Origin: Trueperaceae bacterium
GTDB lineage: Bacteria; Deinococcota; Deinococci; Deinococcales; Trueperaceae
Direction of reading: 5' to 3'
Assembly: GCA_013697735.1 (NCBI GenBank)
Contig: JACCWH010000167.1
Coordinates: 1 to 35,888 of the forward strand
DNA: 35,888 bases
Shown here: piece by piece, positions 30,441 to 35,888 of the stretch
How positions within the stretch are numbered: the stretch's first letter is position 1
How the letters are laid out: each line of letters begins with the position of its first letter
Program-made: the position numbers and the translations under genes
The notes under the pieces: model-generated
The model's database searches: none
Told to the model about the DNA's origin: nothing
The model's input: only the letters and a program-made list of their open reading frames with translations

Positions 30441-33400
30441 TCAGCGCCCCTGCGGAACGGCGGGCTCGAGCACGACGCTGGTGGCGGTGTCGGGCCGAAT
30501 CCGGACCTCCTCGACGAGGATCTCGGGCGTGGCGTCGACCCGTACGCGGTACGCGCCCGTAGGGACCGAGATCGCTTCGCCATCGAGGACACCGCGCGCG
30601 ATCACCGCTCCATCGACGTCGAGCACCTCGTACCCGACCTCACGCACGAGCGCCTCGAGCAGCACGCCCCGCAAGCCGTCACGGCTCGTGGCGTCGAACG
30701 CGCGGCCTCCGCCGAGTTCGGCCCACGCCGAGAACCTCGCAGCGGCAGCGGCACTATCGGCGGCGTCGAGATCGAAGGCGATGATCGAGAGTTGCACGTC
30801 GATACCGCGCTCCTTGAGGGCGCGGATCTCGGCTTCGGGGTCGCCACCACACGACTCCTCGCCGTCGGTGATGAGGATGACGGTCTTCGGACCCGACGCG
30901 AGCGCGAGGTCGTCGGCCACCATCGCGATCGACGCCGCTAGGGGCGTGCCGGAGAGGAGCTTCGCGTCGATCGACGCGATCGCGGTTCTCGCCACCGCGC
31001 GGTCGAGCGGCCCGAGGGGGAGCTCGAGTCGGGTGTCGCACGACGTCGGCAGCACGTGACCGTAGGCACGGAGCGCGAACGGGGTGCCCGGTTCGATCAC
31101 GGTCTCGACCAGCTCGGTGAGCACCTCGCGCGCTACCAGCAATCGCGACGCGCTCCCGTCCGGGAGCAATTTACCCATGCTCCCGGAGGCGTCGAAGATG
31201 ACCACGAGCGCCGGCGCTCCACCGTCGTCGGGTGCGCCTTCGGGGAGCCGACGAACGCTCAGCGAGCCCGGACCGGGGGGCGCGACGCTCGCGCTGCGGA
31301 GTGCCACGGCGACCGTCTTCGGTTGCCGAAGCAGGCAGGAGACGCGGGCGAAGCCGACCTCGAGGTCGCCGATCGTGCGCGAGTAGTCGTAGAAGCCTCC
31401 CACGGCCCAGCTCTGCATTCGGTCCTGGGTGTCGTCTGAGCCCGCCGTGCTCGTCTCGAAGGTGAAGACGCGCGGCCGCACCTCGTCGAGCCCGCGCCAG
31501 AGTTCCAAGGTGGCGTCGGGTGAGGCGCCGCTCTCCGCATCGGTGACGAAGAGGATCGCCTTCGTCCCCTCACGATCGGCGAGCTGCTCGATCGCGAACG
31601 CGAAGTTCGGCTCCGCCGCACTCGACGACGCGCTCCGGTCGTACGTCGTGAGCTCGGCGAGCAGCGTGGTCGGGTCGCCCGTCCACCGCTCCATGATGAA
31701 GGCCGGTCGGTCCTCGAACGCCAGCAGCTGGACCTGCTCGCGATCGCTCGATACGTCGCGCGCGAAGCCGACGACCGTCTGGTACGTCGCCTCGATGTAG
31801 GGTCCCATGCTGCCCGAGTTGTCCCACGCGAAGATCACGGAGCGCTGCGGCTCCCATGCGCGCAGGTAGTAGCGTCCCGGCTCGACGTAGGCCTCGATCG
31901 TGATGCGCTCGGCCGCGATCGTCGTGTCGGCGTCCACGGGGTCGCCCGCCTCGTCGACGAGCTCGTAGGCGTAGGCGATCACGGGGTCGCCGGCGAGCTC
32001 GAGCCGGAGGTGGTTGTCGGTCGTCGGGACGTCGATCCGGTACCACGCCTCGTACTCACCGACGAGCACGCGTCCGACGGCGTCGTCGCCCGACGTGAGG
32101 ACGCGGGCGGTGGCTCGCGAGGCGTGTGGCTCGGCTGCGACGTCGGCGCGCGGGCTCGGTGGCTGCCGCCACTCCAACGCGGCGTCGCGAGCATAGTGGC
32201 CCCACTCGCCGAGGATCGAGCGGTACTCGGGCCCCGCCGGGTGCTCGAACACCCGAACGGCGGCCGGGTACTCGATCGTCGCCCGCGGCTCGAACCCCGA
32301 CGCCGTGAAGCGGACGAAGCGCGCCCACGTCGGGTCGTCGAAACGCCAGGTCGGCTGCTCGTGTGGCCTCCACGTCCCGAGCGACGTGAAGGGCCCGAGC
32401 GCGTCGCCAGTGCTCACGGCGACCTCCACCGCGCCCATGCGCCGCTCCGCGTCGGACTCCGGATGCGTCACCCACTCGAGCGAATCGACGAGGGCGGCGC
32501 GATCGTGATGGAAGCCGAGCACGAATGTCGCCTCCTCCTGGCCCGGCTCGAGGCGCGTGGAGATGGGGCGGTTCCCCGGCTCGTCCGTCAGCGCGTAGAG
32601 GTGCACGTGGGGATCGGCGCGCGTGACGTACCCACCCACGGCGCGTCGCGCGATGTCCACACGCTCGCCCAGGGGTCGGGACGTCGGTTCTGCGATCACC
32701 TTGAACTGCCCGAGATACACGACGCCGCTCGGATCACCGTCTTGTCGAGAGAGCAGCTCCAGTCGGACGAACCTCGCCGGTACCCCCGCCGCGAACACGA
32801 ACGCCTGCTCGCTGGCGATGCTCCGCATCCGACCCTCGTGCGCCGGCGTGAAGACCCGTCCGTCGATCGACGTCGACACCCGGAAGTCGGCGAGCTTCCC
32901 GTCGACCGGGCCGGCACCCAGCGGGTGTAGGAGCACACCGAGCACGCGGGGGGCATCGGCCCCGGCGAGCCTGACGGTGGTGGACTCGCCCCGCTCGGTG
33001 TTGAAGCCGTCCCCCGGCGGGGTGAGGCCGTCGTAGAGGAGCAACTCGCGGCGAACGTCCGTGAGCGGCTCCGATCCGAACGCCATCCAGGCGACGTTGA
33101 GCCCGCCGAGCAGCGGCTCCGGCAGGGGCCAGATCTGGGCCGGATCGACCGCCGGCACGCCACAGACGGCGGCGAGTTCGATCACGGCGCTCACCACGCC
33201 GCCGTCGACGGAGCGCGCCCCCACGCTCACGTGGACGCTCAGGTCGTCGCGCGCGATCGGCATCACCGTGACGCGCGCACCGACGCTGCGCGACTCCCCC
33301 GCCGCGAGCGTCACACGCGTGTCGTCGAGTTCGACGATCCAGCCATGATCGCTCACGTGCGACTCGAGGTCGAGCGTCACCCCCTCGGCGCCCTCGTTGC

Positions 33401-35165
33401 GGAGGTCGACGCGGAGCGCAAGGCGCTGACCGAGGTGGTGGAAGGCCGCGACCTCCCCGACGTCGACCACGAGGTCGATGCCGACGGCCGGCGGCGCAGC
33501 GCGAGGCATCGGCGGGGGACCCGGGTCGAACGAGAGACCGAGCCGATACGATCCGGAGCCGGAGACTGAGACCACGTACGGTCCGCCCGGCTCGAGCGTC
33601 GCGGACGCAATACCGCTCTCGCGGTCGAGCGTCGCCGTGACGAGGGATCGGCCCTCGAGGTCGCGCAGCGCATCGAGTCGGACGCCGTCCCCCTCGAGCT
33701 CGATGGTGACGGCCGTCTCGACGGCGAAGGTGGGCGTCAGGAAGCGATCGTAGTCGCCGTGAGTCCCGACGGTGCCGCGCACCTCGAAGTCGGCCGGGAG
33801 CGGGCGCGCCTCGTGCACCACGTCGTTCGGCTCGAGGTCGTCGGGCAGGTCGAAGGGGTCGAGCACCTCGAGCAGGATCTGGTAGTACCCCTCGCTGAGC
33901 CCCTGCGGCCGCAGCGTCACCACGTGGTCTCCTGCCAGGAACCACCCCTGGTAGACGTACGGCACGCCGATCCCGGGCGTGCTGAAGCCCCGACGGACGT
34001 CCGCATCGATCGCGCCGTCGGGCGGCGGCGTGACGCTCAGGCGGAGGTACGCCTCCTCGCCCAGGTAGAAGCGGTAGACGTCGCGGTCACCCCGTTCGGC
34101 GAGGAGGCCGACCCACGGTTCGTTCGGGCGGATTCGGTGCGCACGGCTCCCGTCGTCGTTCGGCTCGCGTTCCATGATGCCCTCGGGTCGCGGCCCGGTC
34201 GGGACCGCGATCTCCATGTCGGCACCCGGGGGGGGAGGCGCGGGCGTCATGGCGGGCCCGTGCACCTCGGCGGCGGTCGGCGTTGCCGGCGCGTCGGAGC
34301 CAGCGCTCGTGGGGGGCGCCTCGGCCGGTCCGAGCGGCAACAGACGGAGCGCGTAGTCGGCGTCCGTACCATCCACCGAGAAGAAGTGGGTGCCGGGGAG
34401 GAGATGGAGGTTGCTGAGGCGGATGCCGCGGTCGCCCGGGTCGGCACGGCGATCTTGCTGCACGCGCCCCGCGGCGTCGTGATAGCGCAGCGTGGTGACC
34501 TCCGCGCCGACCACCTGGACGCGCCAGAGCTGCGGTTCTCCCGTCACCTCGACACGAAAGTAGTCCTGCTCTCGCCCCTCGAGTCGACCACGGACCGCGA
34601 GGTCGGGGCCGAGGGGGGTGGCCGAGGCGACGCCGTCGTTCGGTTCGCGCTCGAACCCCTCCCGCACGGTCGACACCTCCTCGAGCACGATGCGGTACGT
34701 GCCACCCACCGGCAATCGCCCCGTGAACCGCACGACGACGTCCTCGGCGGGAAGCACCAGGTCCGGCAGCTCGGCGCCCCCGTCGCCGCGACGACAGTGG
34801 TCGCCGGCCGCCGTCACCAGACAGAGGTCGAGGGTCTCGGTGCCAGACGTCGTCGCCCTGAGGGTGTAGCGGCGGTCGCCGGACGGTATGCGCACCTGGT
34901 ACGAGCGATCGTGTCGGTCCTCCGTGGCGACGCCCTCGACGCACGTGGCGGCGCCCCACGCCTGCGGCGCGCCTCGGCCACCGCTCCCGTCGTCGCGCGC
35001 GCAGGTCTGTGCGGACGCGACGCCGAGGAGGAGCAGCGTCACGAGAACGACGGCAGCTCGCCGCGACGACGCGACGCACGTGGCGGTCGACTGCGACCGG
35101 GGCGAGGGGGCGAGCGTCGGCACGCCGAGCAGTGCGCGCGCGCGGGGCGCAAGGTGGAGCTTCAT
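30441..35165 (-). CDS. Large secreted double-VWA protein with PPC-like and discoidin-like regions
   Basis: The 1574-aa product starts with a long n-region and a signal peptide (AAVVLVTLLLLGVASAQ, cleavage near residue 53), so it is exported. Residues about 60-560 hold several PPC-like beta domains, each introduced by an EPND motif (REPNDGVASATPLG, EREPNDDGSRAHRI, LEPNDVVHEARPLP). Residues about 690-990 contain two discoidin-like segments ending in FVRLELLSRQDG and FVRFTASGFEPRA. Two von Willebrand A domains follow. The first MIDAS is DNSGSMG near 1114 with FVTDAESG; the second is DASGSMG near 1323 with LSGTPLAAS and LITDGEESCGG, i.e. DxSxS, Thr and Asp present. No TonB, sortase or transmembrane tail is seen. 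It may bind other surface proteins or polymers through metal-dependent VWA sites; function unknown. Confidence 0.85.
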   Translation of the reverse strand: MKLHLAPRARALLGVPTLAPSPRSQSTATCVASSRRAAVVLVTLLLLGVASAQTCARDDGSGGRGAPQAWGAATCVEGVATEDRHDRSYQVRIPSGDRRYTLRATTSGTETLDLCLVTAAGDHCRRGDGGAELPDLVLPAEDVVVRFTGRLPVGGTYRIVLEEVSTVREGFEREPNDGVASATPLGPDLAVRGRLEGREQDYFRVEVTGEPQLWRVQVVGAEVTTLRYHDAAGRVQQDRRADPGDRGIRLSNLHLLPGTHFFSVDGTDADYALRLLPLGPAEAPPTSAGSDAPATPTAAEVHGPAMTPAPPPPGADMEIAVPTGPRPEGIMEREPNDDGSRAHRIRPNEPWVGLLAERGDRDVYRFYLGEEAYLRLSVTPPPDGAIDADVRRGFSTPGIGVPYVYQGWFLAGDHVVTLRPQGLSEGYYQILLEVLDPFDLPDDLEPNDVVHEARPLPADFEVRGTVGTHGDYDRFLTPTFAVETAVTIELEGDGVRLDALRDLEGRSLVTATLDRESGIASATLEPGGPYVVSVSGSGSYRLGLSFDPGPPPMPRAAPPAVGIDLVVDVGEVAAFHHLGQRLALRVDLRNEGAEGVTLDLESHVSDHGWIVELDDTRVTLAAGESRSVGARVTVMPIARDDLSVHVSVGARSVDGGVVSAVIELAAVCGVPAVDPAQIWPLPEPLLGGLNVAWMAFGSEPLTDVRRELLLYDGLTPPGDGFNTERGESTTVRLAGADAPRVLGVLLHPLGAGPVDGKLADFRVSTSIDGRVFTPAHEGRMRSIASEQAFVFAAGVPARFVRLELLSRQDGDPSGVVYLGQFKVIAEPTSRPLGERVDIARRAVGGYVTRADPHVHLYALTDEPGNRPISTRLEPGQEEATFVLGFHHDRAALVDSLEWVTHPESDAERRMGAVEVAVSTGDALGPFTSLGTWRPHEQPTWRFDDPTWARFVRFTASGFEPRATIEYPAAVRVFEHPAGPEYRSILGEWGHYARDAALEWRQPPSPRADVAAEPHASRATARVLTSGDDAVGRVLVGEYEAWYRIDVPTTDNHLRLELAGDPVIAYAYELVDEAGDPVDADTTIAAERITIEAYVEPGRYYLRAWEPQRSVIFAWDNSGSMGPYIEATYQTVVGFARDVSSDREQVQLLAFEDRPAFIMERWTGDPTTLLAELTTYDRSASSSAAEPNFAFAIEQLADREGTKAILFVTDAESGASPDATLELWRGLDEVRPRVFTFETSTAGSDDTQDRMQSWAVGGFYDYSRTIGDLEVGFARVSCLLRQPKTVAVALRSASVAPPGPGSLSVRRLPEGAPDDGGAPALVVIFDASGSMGKLLPDGSASRLLVAREVLTELVETVIEPGTPFALRAYGHVLPTSCDTRLELPLGPLDRAVARTAIASIDAKLLSGTPLAASIAMVADDLALASGPKTVILITDGEESCGGDPEAEIRALKERGIDVQLSIIAFDLDAADSAAAAARFSAWAELGGGRAFDATSRDGLRGVLLEALVREVGYEVLDVDGAVIARGVLDGEAISVPTGAYRVRVDATPEILVEEVRIRPDTATSVVLEPAVPQGR

Positions 35166-35278: not shown

Positions 35279-35307
35279 TTGACACCCCCAGGGTGGCGCT
35301 GTACGCT
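35279..35307 (+). promoter_or_regulatory. Consensus sigma-70-type promoter of the aspS leader
   Basis: TTGACA (35279-35284), a 17-nt spacer and TACGCT (35302-35307). The expected transcript start is about 35314, the base before the leader-peptide ATG at 35315. Confidence 0.88.
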
Positions 35308-35314
35308 CCGGCGC

Positions 35315-35377
35315 ATGACGCTCCGCCCAGCGCCGCTCCAGGACGACAATCCCGACGTGCGACGGCCCGGGGCGTAG
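35315..35377 (+). CDS. aspS leader peptide (20 aa, Asp/Asn-rich core)
   Basis: ATG at 35315 encodes MTLRPAPLQDDNPDVRRPGA then TAG. It starts 7 nt after the -10 hexamer, so translation would be leaderless. The cluster GAC GAC AAT CCC GAC (35342-35356) asks for charged Asp-tRNA three times and Asn-tRNA once. Those are the two products that depend on the non-discriminating AspRS encoded downstream. A ribosome paused there would leave CGGCCCGGGG (35363-35372) at its leading edge, the antiterminator strand. One that terminates at 35377 would cover it. Confidence 0.7.
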   Translation: MTLRPAPLQDDNPDVRRPGA

Positions 35378-35413
35378 GCGTCGATCTCGATTGCGTGGAC
35401 CACCCCGAGGCCG
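35363..35413 (+). promoter_or_regulatory. Candidate antiterminator helix of the aspS leader
   Basis: CGGCCCGGGG (35363-35372) can pair with CCCCGAGGCCG (35403-35413) as ten G-C pairs with one bulged A (35408). The right side uses most of the terminator's first arm and part of its loop, so the two structures are mutually exclusive. A competing weak hairpin, CGACG (35360-35364) with CGTCG (35379-35383), could sequester the left side. Confidence 0.55.
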
Positions 35414-35429
35414 CCCCTCGGGGTGGTCC
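35397..35429 (+). terminator. Terminator-like hairpin (attenuator) upstream of aspS
   Basis: GGACCACCCCGAGG (35397-35410) and CCTCGGGGTGGTCC (35416-35429) form a perfect 14-bp helix with a 5-nt loop, starting 19 nt after the leader-peptide stop and ending 36 nt before the aspS start. The following TGTTCGTGG is only modestly T-rich, so termination may be inefficient or need a factor. It could alternatively act as a pause or processing structure. Confidence 0.7.
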
Positions 35430-35454
35430 TGTTCGTGGTCACGGCGTGCCATCC

Positions 35455-35461
35455 GAGGAGG
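35455..35461 (+). promoter_or_regulatory. Shine-Dalgarno of aspS
   Basis: GAGGAGG lies 4 nt before the ATG at 35466 and 10 nt before a second in-frame ATG at 35472. Either could be the start. Confidence 0.7.
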
Positions 35462-35465
35462 ACGA

Positions 35466-35888
35466 ATGACGATGACGAGGGACGATCCCGGCGCACGGAC
35501 GTTGGTGCGTGACCTCGCGGCGCACACGGGCGAACGCGTCGTGCTCCGGGGCTGGGTGCACCAGCGCCGCGACCTCGGCGGCATCGGCTTCCTCCACCTG
35601 CGCGACCGCAGCGGCATGATTCAGTGCGTATTCGAAGGGGCGGTGCTCCCCCTGCACGAGAGCGCCGTCGAGGTGGAGGGGACAGTCCGCGAGAACGACA
35701 GGGCCCCGGGCGGCATCGAAGTCCATGGCTCCCGCCTCGACGTGATCAATCTCGCGATCGCACCGCCACCGATCGAGATCGCCAAGGAGGGGCAGCAGGC
35801 GAACCCCGAGACGCTGCTCGAGTACCGGCACGTCTCCGTGCGGGGTCTGCGGAGTCAGGCGACGCTCAAGGTGCAGGCCGAACTCGTG
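35466..35888 (+). CDS. aspS: Aspartyl-tRNA synthetase, archaeal/non-discriminating type (partial, 3' end missing)
   Basis: The frame is open to the window edge; 141 codons are visible. It covers the N-terminal OB-fold anticodon-binding domain (RVVLRGWVHQRRDLGGIGFLHLRD, residues about 25-48) and the linker (NPETLLEYRHVSVRGLRSQATLKVQAELV, 113-141) leading to the class II catalytic core. From memory this matches the second, archaeal-type AspRS of deinococci, which aspartylates both tRNA-Asp and tRNA-Asn; the latter is then amidated by GatCAB to make Asn-tRNA. Asparaginyl-tRNA synthetase has a similar N-terminus and is the main alternative until the rest is seen. It has a good SD, unlike most genes here, and a 158-nt leader with an attenuator. 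Confidence 0.85.
   Translation, partial: MTMTRDDPGARTLVRDLAAHTGERVVLRGWVHQRRDLGGIGFLHLRDRSGMIQCVFEGAVLPLHESAVEVEGTVRENDRAPGGIEVHGSRLDVINLAIAPPPIEIAKEGQQANPETLLEYRHVSVRGLRSQATLKVQAELV

Follow-up and report, generated by a model that had tools for sequence, protein, structure and literature searches.

A predicted leaderless asparagine/aspartate leader upstream of aspS2 is conserved across Deinococcota and is very likely a ribosome-mediated attenuator

The aspS2 locus of a Trueperaceae bacterium

The window, by which we mean the whole 35,888-nucleotide stretch of Trueperaceae DNA that was analyzed, ends within the 5' part of aspS2 (35466..35888, plus strand), which encodes an archaeal-type, non-discriminating aspartate--tRNA(Asn) ligase (AspRS2). 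The gene begins at ATG 35466 and runs off the window, and its product is best matched by the NCBIfam models NF003483 and TIGR00458. Upstream on the same strand are a Shine-Dalgarno sequence, AGGAGG (35456..35461), and a promoter (35279..35307) consisting of TTGACA at 35279-35284, a 17-nt spacer and the -10 hexamer TACGCT at 35302-35307, both read from the sequence. At 35315, 7 nt past the -10 hexamer, is the ATG of a 20-codon ORF (35315..35377, plus strand) that encodes MTLRPAPLQDDNPDVRRPGA and ends at TAG 35375-35377. This ATG is itself the predicted 5' end of the transcript; in other words, the ORF is predicted to be leaderless. It contains a cluster of putative control codons at 35342..35356, GAC (35342), GAC (35345), AAT (35348), CCC (35351) and GAC (35354), specifying Asp-Asp-Asn-Pro-Asp.

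Between the ORF and aspS2 lies a perfect 14-bp hairpin (35397..35429; arms 35397-35410 and 35416-35429, loop CCGCC), the putative terminator, followed by a T-poor tail, TGTTCGTGG (35430..35438). Its 5' arm (strand 3) contains the partner of a second pairing that excludes the hairpin: the antiterminator 5' strand (strand 2), CGGCCCGGGG at 35363..35372, can pair with CCCCG(A)GGCCG at 35403-35413 through ten G-C pairs with one bulged A. A possible protector, strand 1 (35317..35328), appears in the MFE structure, where GACGCT (35317-35322) pairs with GGCGTC (35377-35382) and CGCCC (35324-35328) with GGGCG (35370-35374). An initial annotation had described the promoter, the ORF with its Asp/Asn codons, the hairpin, and aspS with its Shine-Dalgarno sequence, and had drawn the alternative pairing; all of these held on re-reading.

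Generic methods have little to say about this region. Sigma-70 and terminator scans of the window returned nothing at their thresholds, an Rfam cmscan of the region (E<=1) found no T-box and no other relevant RNA family, and plain folding gave the leader no unusual stability (z -1.65). The -10 hexamer matches only three of six consensus positions and the T-tract is weak (TGTTCGTG). The poor T-tract and the antiterminator's need for a bulged A are points against an attenuator in the window. Because the generic scans, Rfam and plain folding were all uninformative, the case rests on comparison with relatives.

Conservation of the leader across Deinococcota

AspRS2 was found across a sample of 111 genomes from the phylum, and 99 aspS2 upstream regions were read. 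The taxa include Thermus, Meiothermus, Calidithermus and Trueperaceae (names confirmed by a GTDB scan); the genus Deinococcus itself lies outside these 99 regions. The leader is present at 98 of the 99 loci, completely at 96 and at two others (L011 and L032) that are cut by contig ends yet still show the Asp/Asn cluster. In the 96 the order is always promoter, leaderless ATG, short ORF, GC hairpin and aspS2, a layout conserved over 28 genera. At one locus (L041) the hairpin falls under the search threshold, and a GC-rich inverted repeat is still visible there. In one genome (G025; L040/L160) the leader is missing and aspS2 follows immediately on another gene; a second (G004; L013) keeps the promoter, ORF and terminator with a single Asn codon. 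The aspS2 leader is a phylum-wide feature and no curiosity of Truepera.

A promoter of the form TTGAC-N17/18-TAnnnT lies immediately 5' of the leader in the 96 orthologous loci, with a spacer of 17 in 80 and of 18 in 15. The start codon sits 7-11 nt past the -10 hexamer (95 loci counted), although the transcription start site is unmapped. The leader ORF was picked by promoter score only. An in-frame [DN][DN] pair nevertheless occurs in 87 of the 96 complete leaders and never in the +1 or +2 frame, and Asp plus Asn account for 24.7% of in-frame leader codons (genus means), compared with 1.9% and 1.0% for the alternative frames. Control codons differ between relatives by synonymous GAC/GAT changes. 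Apart from the Asp/Asn residues, the leader peptides are unrelated between families: Trueperaceae leaders contain DDN and end in LGA, those of Thermus read MRPRLLNNG or MRLPQGNDA, those of Meiothermus MLRADDNL, and groups f3 and f5 have MRGLLNNDR and MKCFFNNSADDDN, respectively. Asn is present in 94/95 leaders and Asp in 72/95, making Asn rather than Asp the likely near-universal control residue.

Codon choice differs among lineages. In Trueperaceae the Asn codons of the cluster are AAT in 27 of 30 cases, whereas AspRS2 genes from these genera contain 29 AAT and 130 AAC codons; Thermus leaders use mainly AAC (AAC 30, AAT 12). The window offers a similar comparison, as none of the 12 Asn codons in the ORF at 30441-35165 is AAT, versus the AAT at 35348-35350 in the leader. 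We offer no tested explanation for this preference in Trueperaceae.

Competing helices and ribosome geometry

An antiterminator that excludes the hairpin was found in nearly all loci. In Trueperaceae its 5' strand (consensus CTCGGGG) forms the last codons of the ORF, and in Thermaceae it lies just past the stop. With a modeled ribosome footprint extending from -15 to +11 around the A site, the antiterminator strand, over 90 loci, is 2% masked when the first codon of the cluster occupies the A site, 22% with the last, and 98% when the ribosome is at the stop. These are computed values, and they agree with the annotation's claim that a ribosome held at the Asp/Asn codons would uncover the strand and one at the stop would mask it.

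Antiterminator and terminator show covariation. Cognate antiterminator-terminator pairs are more stable than between-genus swaps (-16.1 vs -14.0 kcal/mol), with none of 300 swaps as good over 26 genera; a control segment 5' of the -35 showed no such effect over all genera (99/300). Within the Trueperaceae alignment, the antiterminator helix has three pairs changed on both sides and is 86.9% paired, against 44-66% in slid registers, and the terminator helix is 89.1% paired with four such pairs, none of 500 shuffles matching its covariation score. Within single groups the signal is weaker and covariation modest: swaps were as good in 14/300 cases for Trueperaceae and 28/300 for the others, with 17-20/500 for shuffles, and the shuffle controls leave some relatedness in place. 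Most relatives also have a T-rich tail past the hairpin (mean 4 T in 8 nt, e.g. TTTTTTTG and TTTTTCTT), in contrast to the window; several Thermus loci have a weak T-tract, such as CAAAGCTT past the stem.

A third helix is suggested, as a possibility, by pairing of the first leader codons with the antiterminator strand and a conserved GCGTC after the stop. Shuffles equalled the cognate pairing in 12/500 cases in Trueperaceae and 16/500 in the others; examples are GACGCC:GGCGTC (L046), CGCGGC:GCCGCG (L031) and GCTACG:CGTAGC (L053). An RNA-polymerase pause site remains conceivable as the role of GCGTC; we set it aside in favor of pairing with the leader start without excluding it.

The conserved ORF, its codon cluster, the geometry, the helices and the association with aspS2 are thus shown. 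The initial annotation had named three observations that would refute an attenuator. Two of these, relatives without the ORF or its Asp/Asn cluster and an absence of covariation in either helix, were not met. The third, transcription starting past 35377, is not met by the sequence, in that the promoter at the 5' end of the ORF is conserved along with it; the true start is unmapped.

Specificity for aspS2

A promoter-ATG-GAYAAT pattern matched 37 sites in the 111 genomes, 31 of them at aspS2 as assigned by position, compared with 3 for the reversed control. A version with AAYAAY gave 28 aspS2 matches in the same genomes and a larger background elsewhere. Among the AspRS1, AsnRS and GatB upstream regions examined we found no comparable leader; a candidate at a gatB locus (L218) was rejected, as it starts on GTG, is antisense and has no terminator by eye. 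Five matches away from aspS2 were also inspected and set aside: four are ordinary or unrelated ORFs, and the fifth (L275, in G040) encodes the leader of leuS, MIHSGLDNSGSRQA, in which Asp-Asn is incidental.

AspRS2 as an enzyme of asparagine synthesis

PDB 1n9w and 3kfu, structures of the non-discriminating archaeal-type AspRS2, match the entire Thermus orthologue (L034; residues 1-422). The initial annotation had supposed that this enzyme feeds both Asp- and Asn-tRNA and that the Asp/Asn leader is a sensor matched to it. The type of gene was right. However, the window genome also encodes a bacterial AspRS1 (693.8 bits) and AsnRS (440.6 bits), together with GatB (466.4 bits), which rules out AspRS2 as its sole source of Asp- and Asn-tRNA. 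Given these other synthetases, the role of AspRS2 is best understood as catalyzing the first step of tRNA-dependent asparagine synthesis, with Asn-tRNA as the main signal. This shifts the emphasis of the initial interpretation, which otherwise largely holds.

Asparagine synthetase over the family cut-off is absent from 30 of 41 genomes, including that of the window, in which two asparagine-synthetase-like matches (171 and 169 bits) fall under the cut-off of 267 bits; a search at E <= 1e-40 gave no match in 27 of 41 relatives. GatB was found in 38 of the 41 genomes. In D. radiodurans and T. thermophilus, a second AspRS and GatCAB make asparagine on tRNA(Asn) (PMC4206432). Because AspRS1, AsnRS and GatB are present, asparagine synthetase is mostly absent and this precedent exists, AspRS2 is best regarded as a biosynthetic enzyme that starts tRNA-dependent asparagine synthesis.

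Discussion

We propose that aspS2 is, very likely, controlled by classical ribosome-mediated transcription attenuation, in which an apparently leaderless leader peptide responds to the supply of Asn-tRNA and, in most lineages, of Asp-tRNA as well. The start, the stalling, the termination and the response to asparagine are all inferred, and there are no expression data. Hypothetically, RNA polymerase begins at or beside the leader ATG, and a ribosome binds the 5' end of the transcript. When Asn- and Asp-tRNA are ample, the ribosome would reach the stop and hide the antiterminator strand, the terminator would fold, and aspS2 would not be transcribed. When charged tRNA is scarce, the ribosome would pause at the Asp/Asn codons and the strand some 9-26 nt downstream would remain free; it could then pair with the 5' arm of the terminator, allowing transcription of aspS2. 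AspRS2 makes Asp-tRNA(Asn), which GatCAB converts to Asn-tRNA(Asn).

It could be argued that the leader acts instead on translation or polarity, such that the ORF sets ribosome loading or Rho access and the hairpin is an element of mRNA structure rather than an intrinsic terminator. Support for this reading comes from T-tracts that are weak in the window and at several Thermus loci, and from the empty result of the strict terminator scan. However, the tail is T-rich in most relatives, the aspS Shine-Dalgarno sequence lies outside the hairpin and an exclusive antiterminator exists in nearly all loci, and we consider it very unlikely. A further possibility is that the peptide senses another cue, either as an arrest peptide or through the queuosine state of tRNA-Asp and tRNA-Asn, both of which are queuosine tRNAs. 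The prevalence of AAT among the cluster codons of Trueperaceae (27/30, vs 29:130 AAT:AAC in AspRS2 genes) would fit a queuosine signal, but Thermus leaders chiefly use AAC (30/42). Outside the Asp/Asn residues the peptide is unconserved between families and so offers no arrest motif, and this explanation too has very little to recommend it. Finally, the ORF might have no function and its run of codons might be coincidental, as the shortness of the leader and its unexceptional plain fold could suggest. Chance of this kind is all but excluded by conservation over 28 genera, the frame-specific enrichment of Asp/Asn codons and the fixed geometry.

The attenuator that we favor has clear counterparts. 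The attenuators of E. coli trp, his, leu and pheST and of Streptomyces trpS and leuS likewise have a leader ORF with cognate codons and an exclusive antiterminator and terminator between which ribosome position decides (pheST, trpS and leuS are cited as classical attenuators in PMC1262725). The aspS2 leader differs in its Asn/Asp codons, in its target, a non-discriminating AspRS acting as a biosynthetic enzyme, in having its ATG at the predicted 5' end, in its occurrence in Deinococcota and in its small size (~70-115 nt in most loci). Leaderless leaders are known from Actinobacteria, including the cysteine sORFs of M. smegmatis and ilvBNC of C. glutamicum, which has no ribosome binding site; as is predicted for the aspS2 leader, these place a short ORF with pathway codons and no Shine-Dalgarno sequence at the 5' end (PMC9031893; PMC10272879 reference list). 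They differ in amino acid and phylum; moreover, PMC9031893 summarizes the cysteine ORFs as affecting translation of downstream genes, whereas aspS2 has a terminator hairpin.

In Firmicutes and Chloroflexota, the AspRS2 gene is also under tRNA-charging control, by a T-box on aspS. The T-box reads uncharged tRNA directly, whereas no T-box was found at the Deinococcota aspS2 leaders scanned. Rfam RF00230 was detected in eight aspS2 loci outside the phylum (Paenibacillus, Clostridia), T-box-like GGTGGYACCACG motifs are visible in Chloroflexota loci, and RF00230 was not found at the three Deinococcota loci L034, L014 and L037. The T-boxes on aspS2 in Firmicutes indicate that charged-tRNA control of this gene is recurrent, and T-boxes and leader peptides are known to replace one another (PMC2965389). 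Downstream of its T-box, Paenibacillus profundus (L166) also has a short ORF that begins with MDDGDDDDDNNIFNSRNN and extends into the aspS2 start; it is possibly a second Asp/Asn sensor.

According to a 2010 survey, before its own Firmicutes cases no leader-peptide systems were known outside Proteobacteria and Actinobacteria (PMC2965389). To our knowledge, no attenuator for asparagine is known. Neither such an attenuator nor an aspS2 leader was described in the literature that we searched, consistent with the initial annotation, which knew of no prior description; prior mention is possible in a wide-ranging survey of attenuation (Lopatovskaya et al. 2010, Mol Biol 44:128) and in work on the leaderless mRNAs of Deinococcus deserti (de Groot et al. 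2014). Ribosome-mediated attenuation, also of aminoacyl-tRNA synthetase genes, and leaderless leaders are already known; what we did not find described is an Asn version on aspS2 that is very short and apparently leaderless.

Other putative leaderless leaders in Deinococcota

The leaderless layout was sought before other genes in only three genomes. Short, apparently leaderless ORFs that carry matching codons and are accompanied by a terminator were seen at L245, L248, L251 and L273 (Thermus G077), L246 (the window genome), L262 (G014) and L275 (G040). Such leaders include MRTYGRYFGFYYPAGGALRSA before DAHP synthase (with FGFYYP), MRFGLVLSLGLVLIVGPAGGRV before ilvB, MRRGILLDLGRAGPA before leuC (with CTA codons), MLALEKKLGRRGVG before homocitrate synthase (with KK), and MPVATNLLQLGGPRR and the L275 peptide given above before leuS. 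Leaderless attenuators thus apparently form a class in Deinococcota, of which the aspS2 leader is likely one of several members.

Two further elements were observed. In Thermus G077 a leaderless 11-codon ORF, MLGALPSSPRP, with a hairpin at its stop lies just 5' of mgtE, a magnesium transporter gene (L257); there is no obvious codon match, and its proline codons recall Mg2+-sensing leader peptides. On the minus strand of the window, at 21868-21632, a leaderless TTGACA-N17-TACACT promoter is followed by the tandem, similar ORFs MIDRAPLHLTKLFPT and MIERAPLHLTMLLRARGAAAPANAVPREWSAG, a strong terminator-like hairpin with a T-run, and an ABC transporter pair (21528-17810). Judged from sequence alone, this element may resemble an inducible leader-peptide attenuator.

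Implications for asparagine supply

A bolder reading, toward which we lean only slightly, is that the aspS2 leader is devoted to sensing tRNA-dependent asparagine synthesis and stands in for the T-box of other phyla. In this reading it would be part of a phylum-wide set of very short leaderless attenuators (also at DAHP synthase, ilvB, leuC, leuS and homocitrate synthase) in which ribosomes load at the 5' end and the outcome is settled within about 10-20 codons. The leaders of 8-9 codons at the extreme 5' end would rank among the smallest attenuators. The system is present in culturable Thermus and Meiothermus, so it is directly testable, and it offers a clean means of studying, at high temperature, the coupling between leaderless initiation and RNA polymerase.

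For the organisms themselves, the leader would put a synthetase gene under the kind of control known from amino-acid biosynthesis operons, in keeping with the role of AspRS2 as a first enzyme where asparagine synthetase is mostly missing. Because the sensor would read the final product, Asn-tRNA, it would report on AspRS2 and GatCAB together. That the arrangement is kept in nearly all relatives suggests that the cell can probably switch aspS2 on when Asn-charged tRNA runs short.
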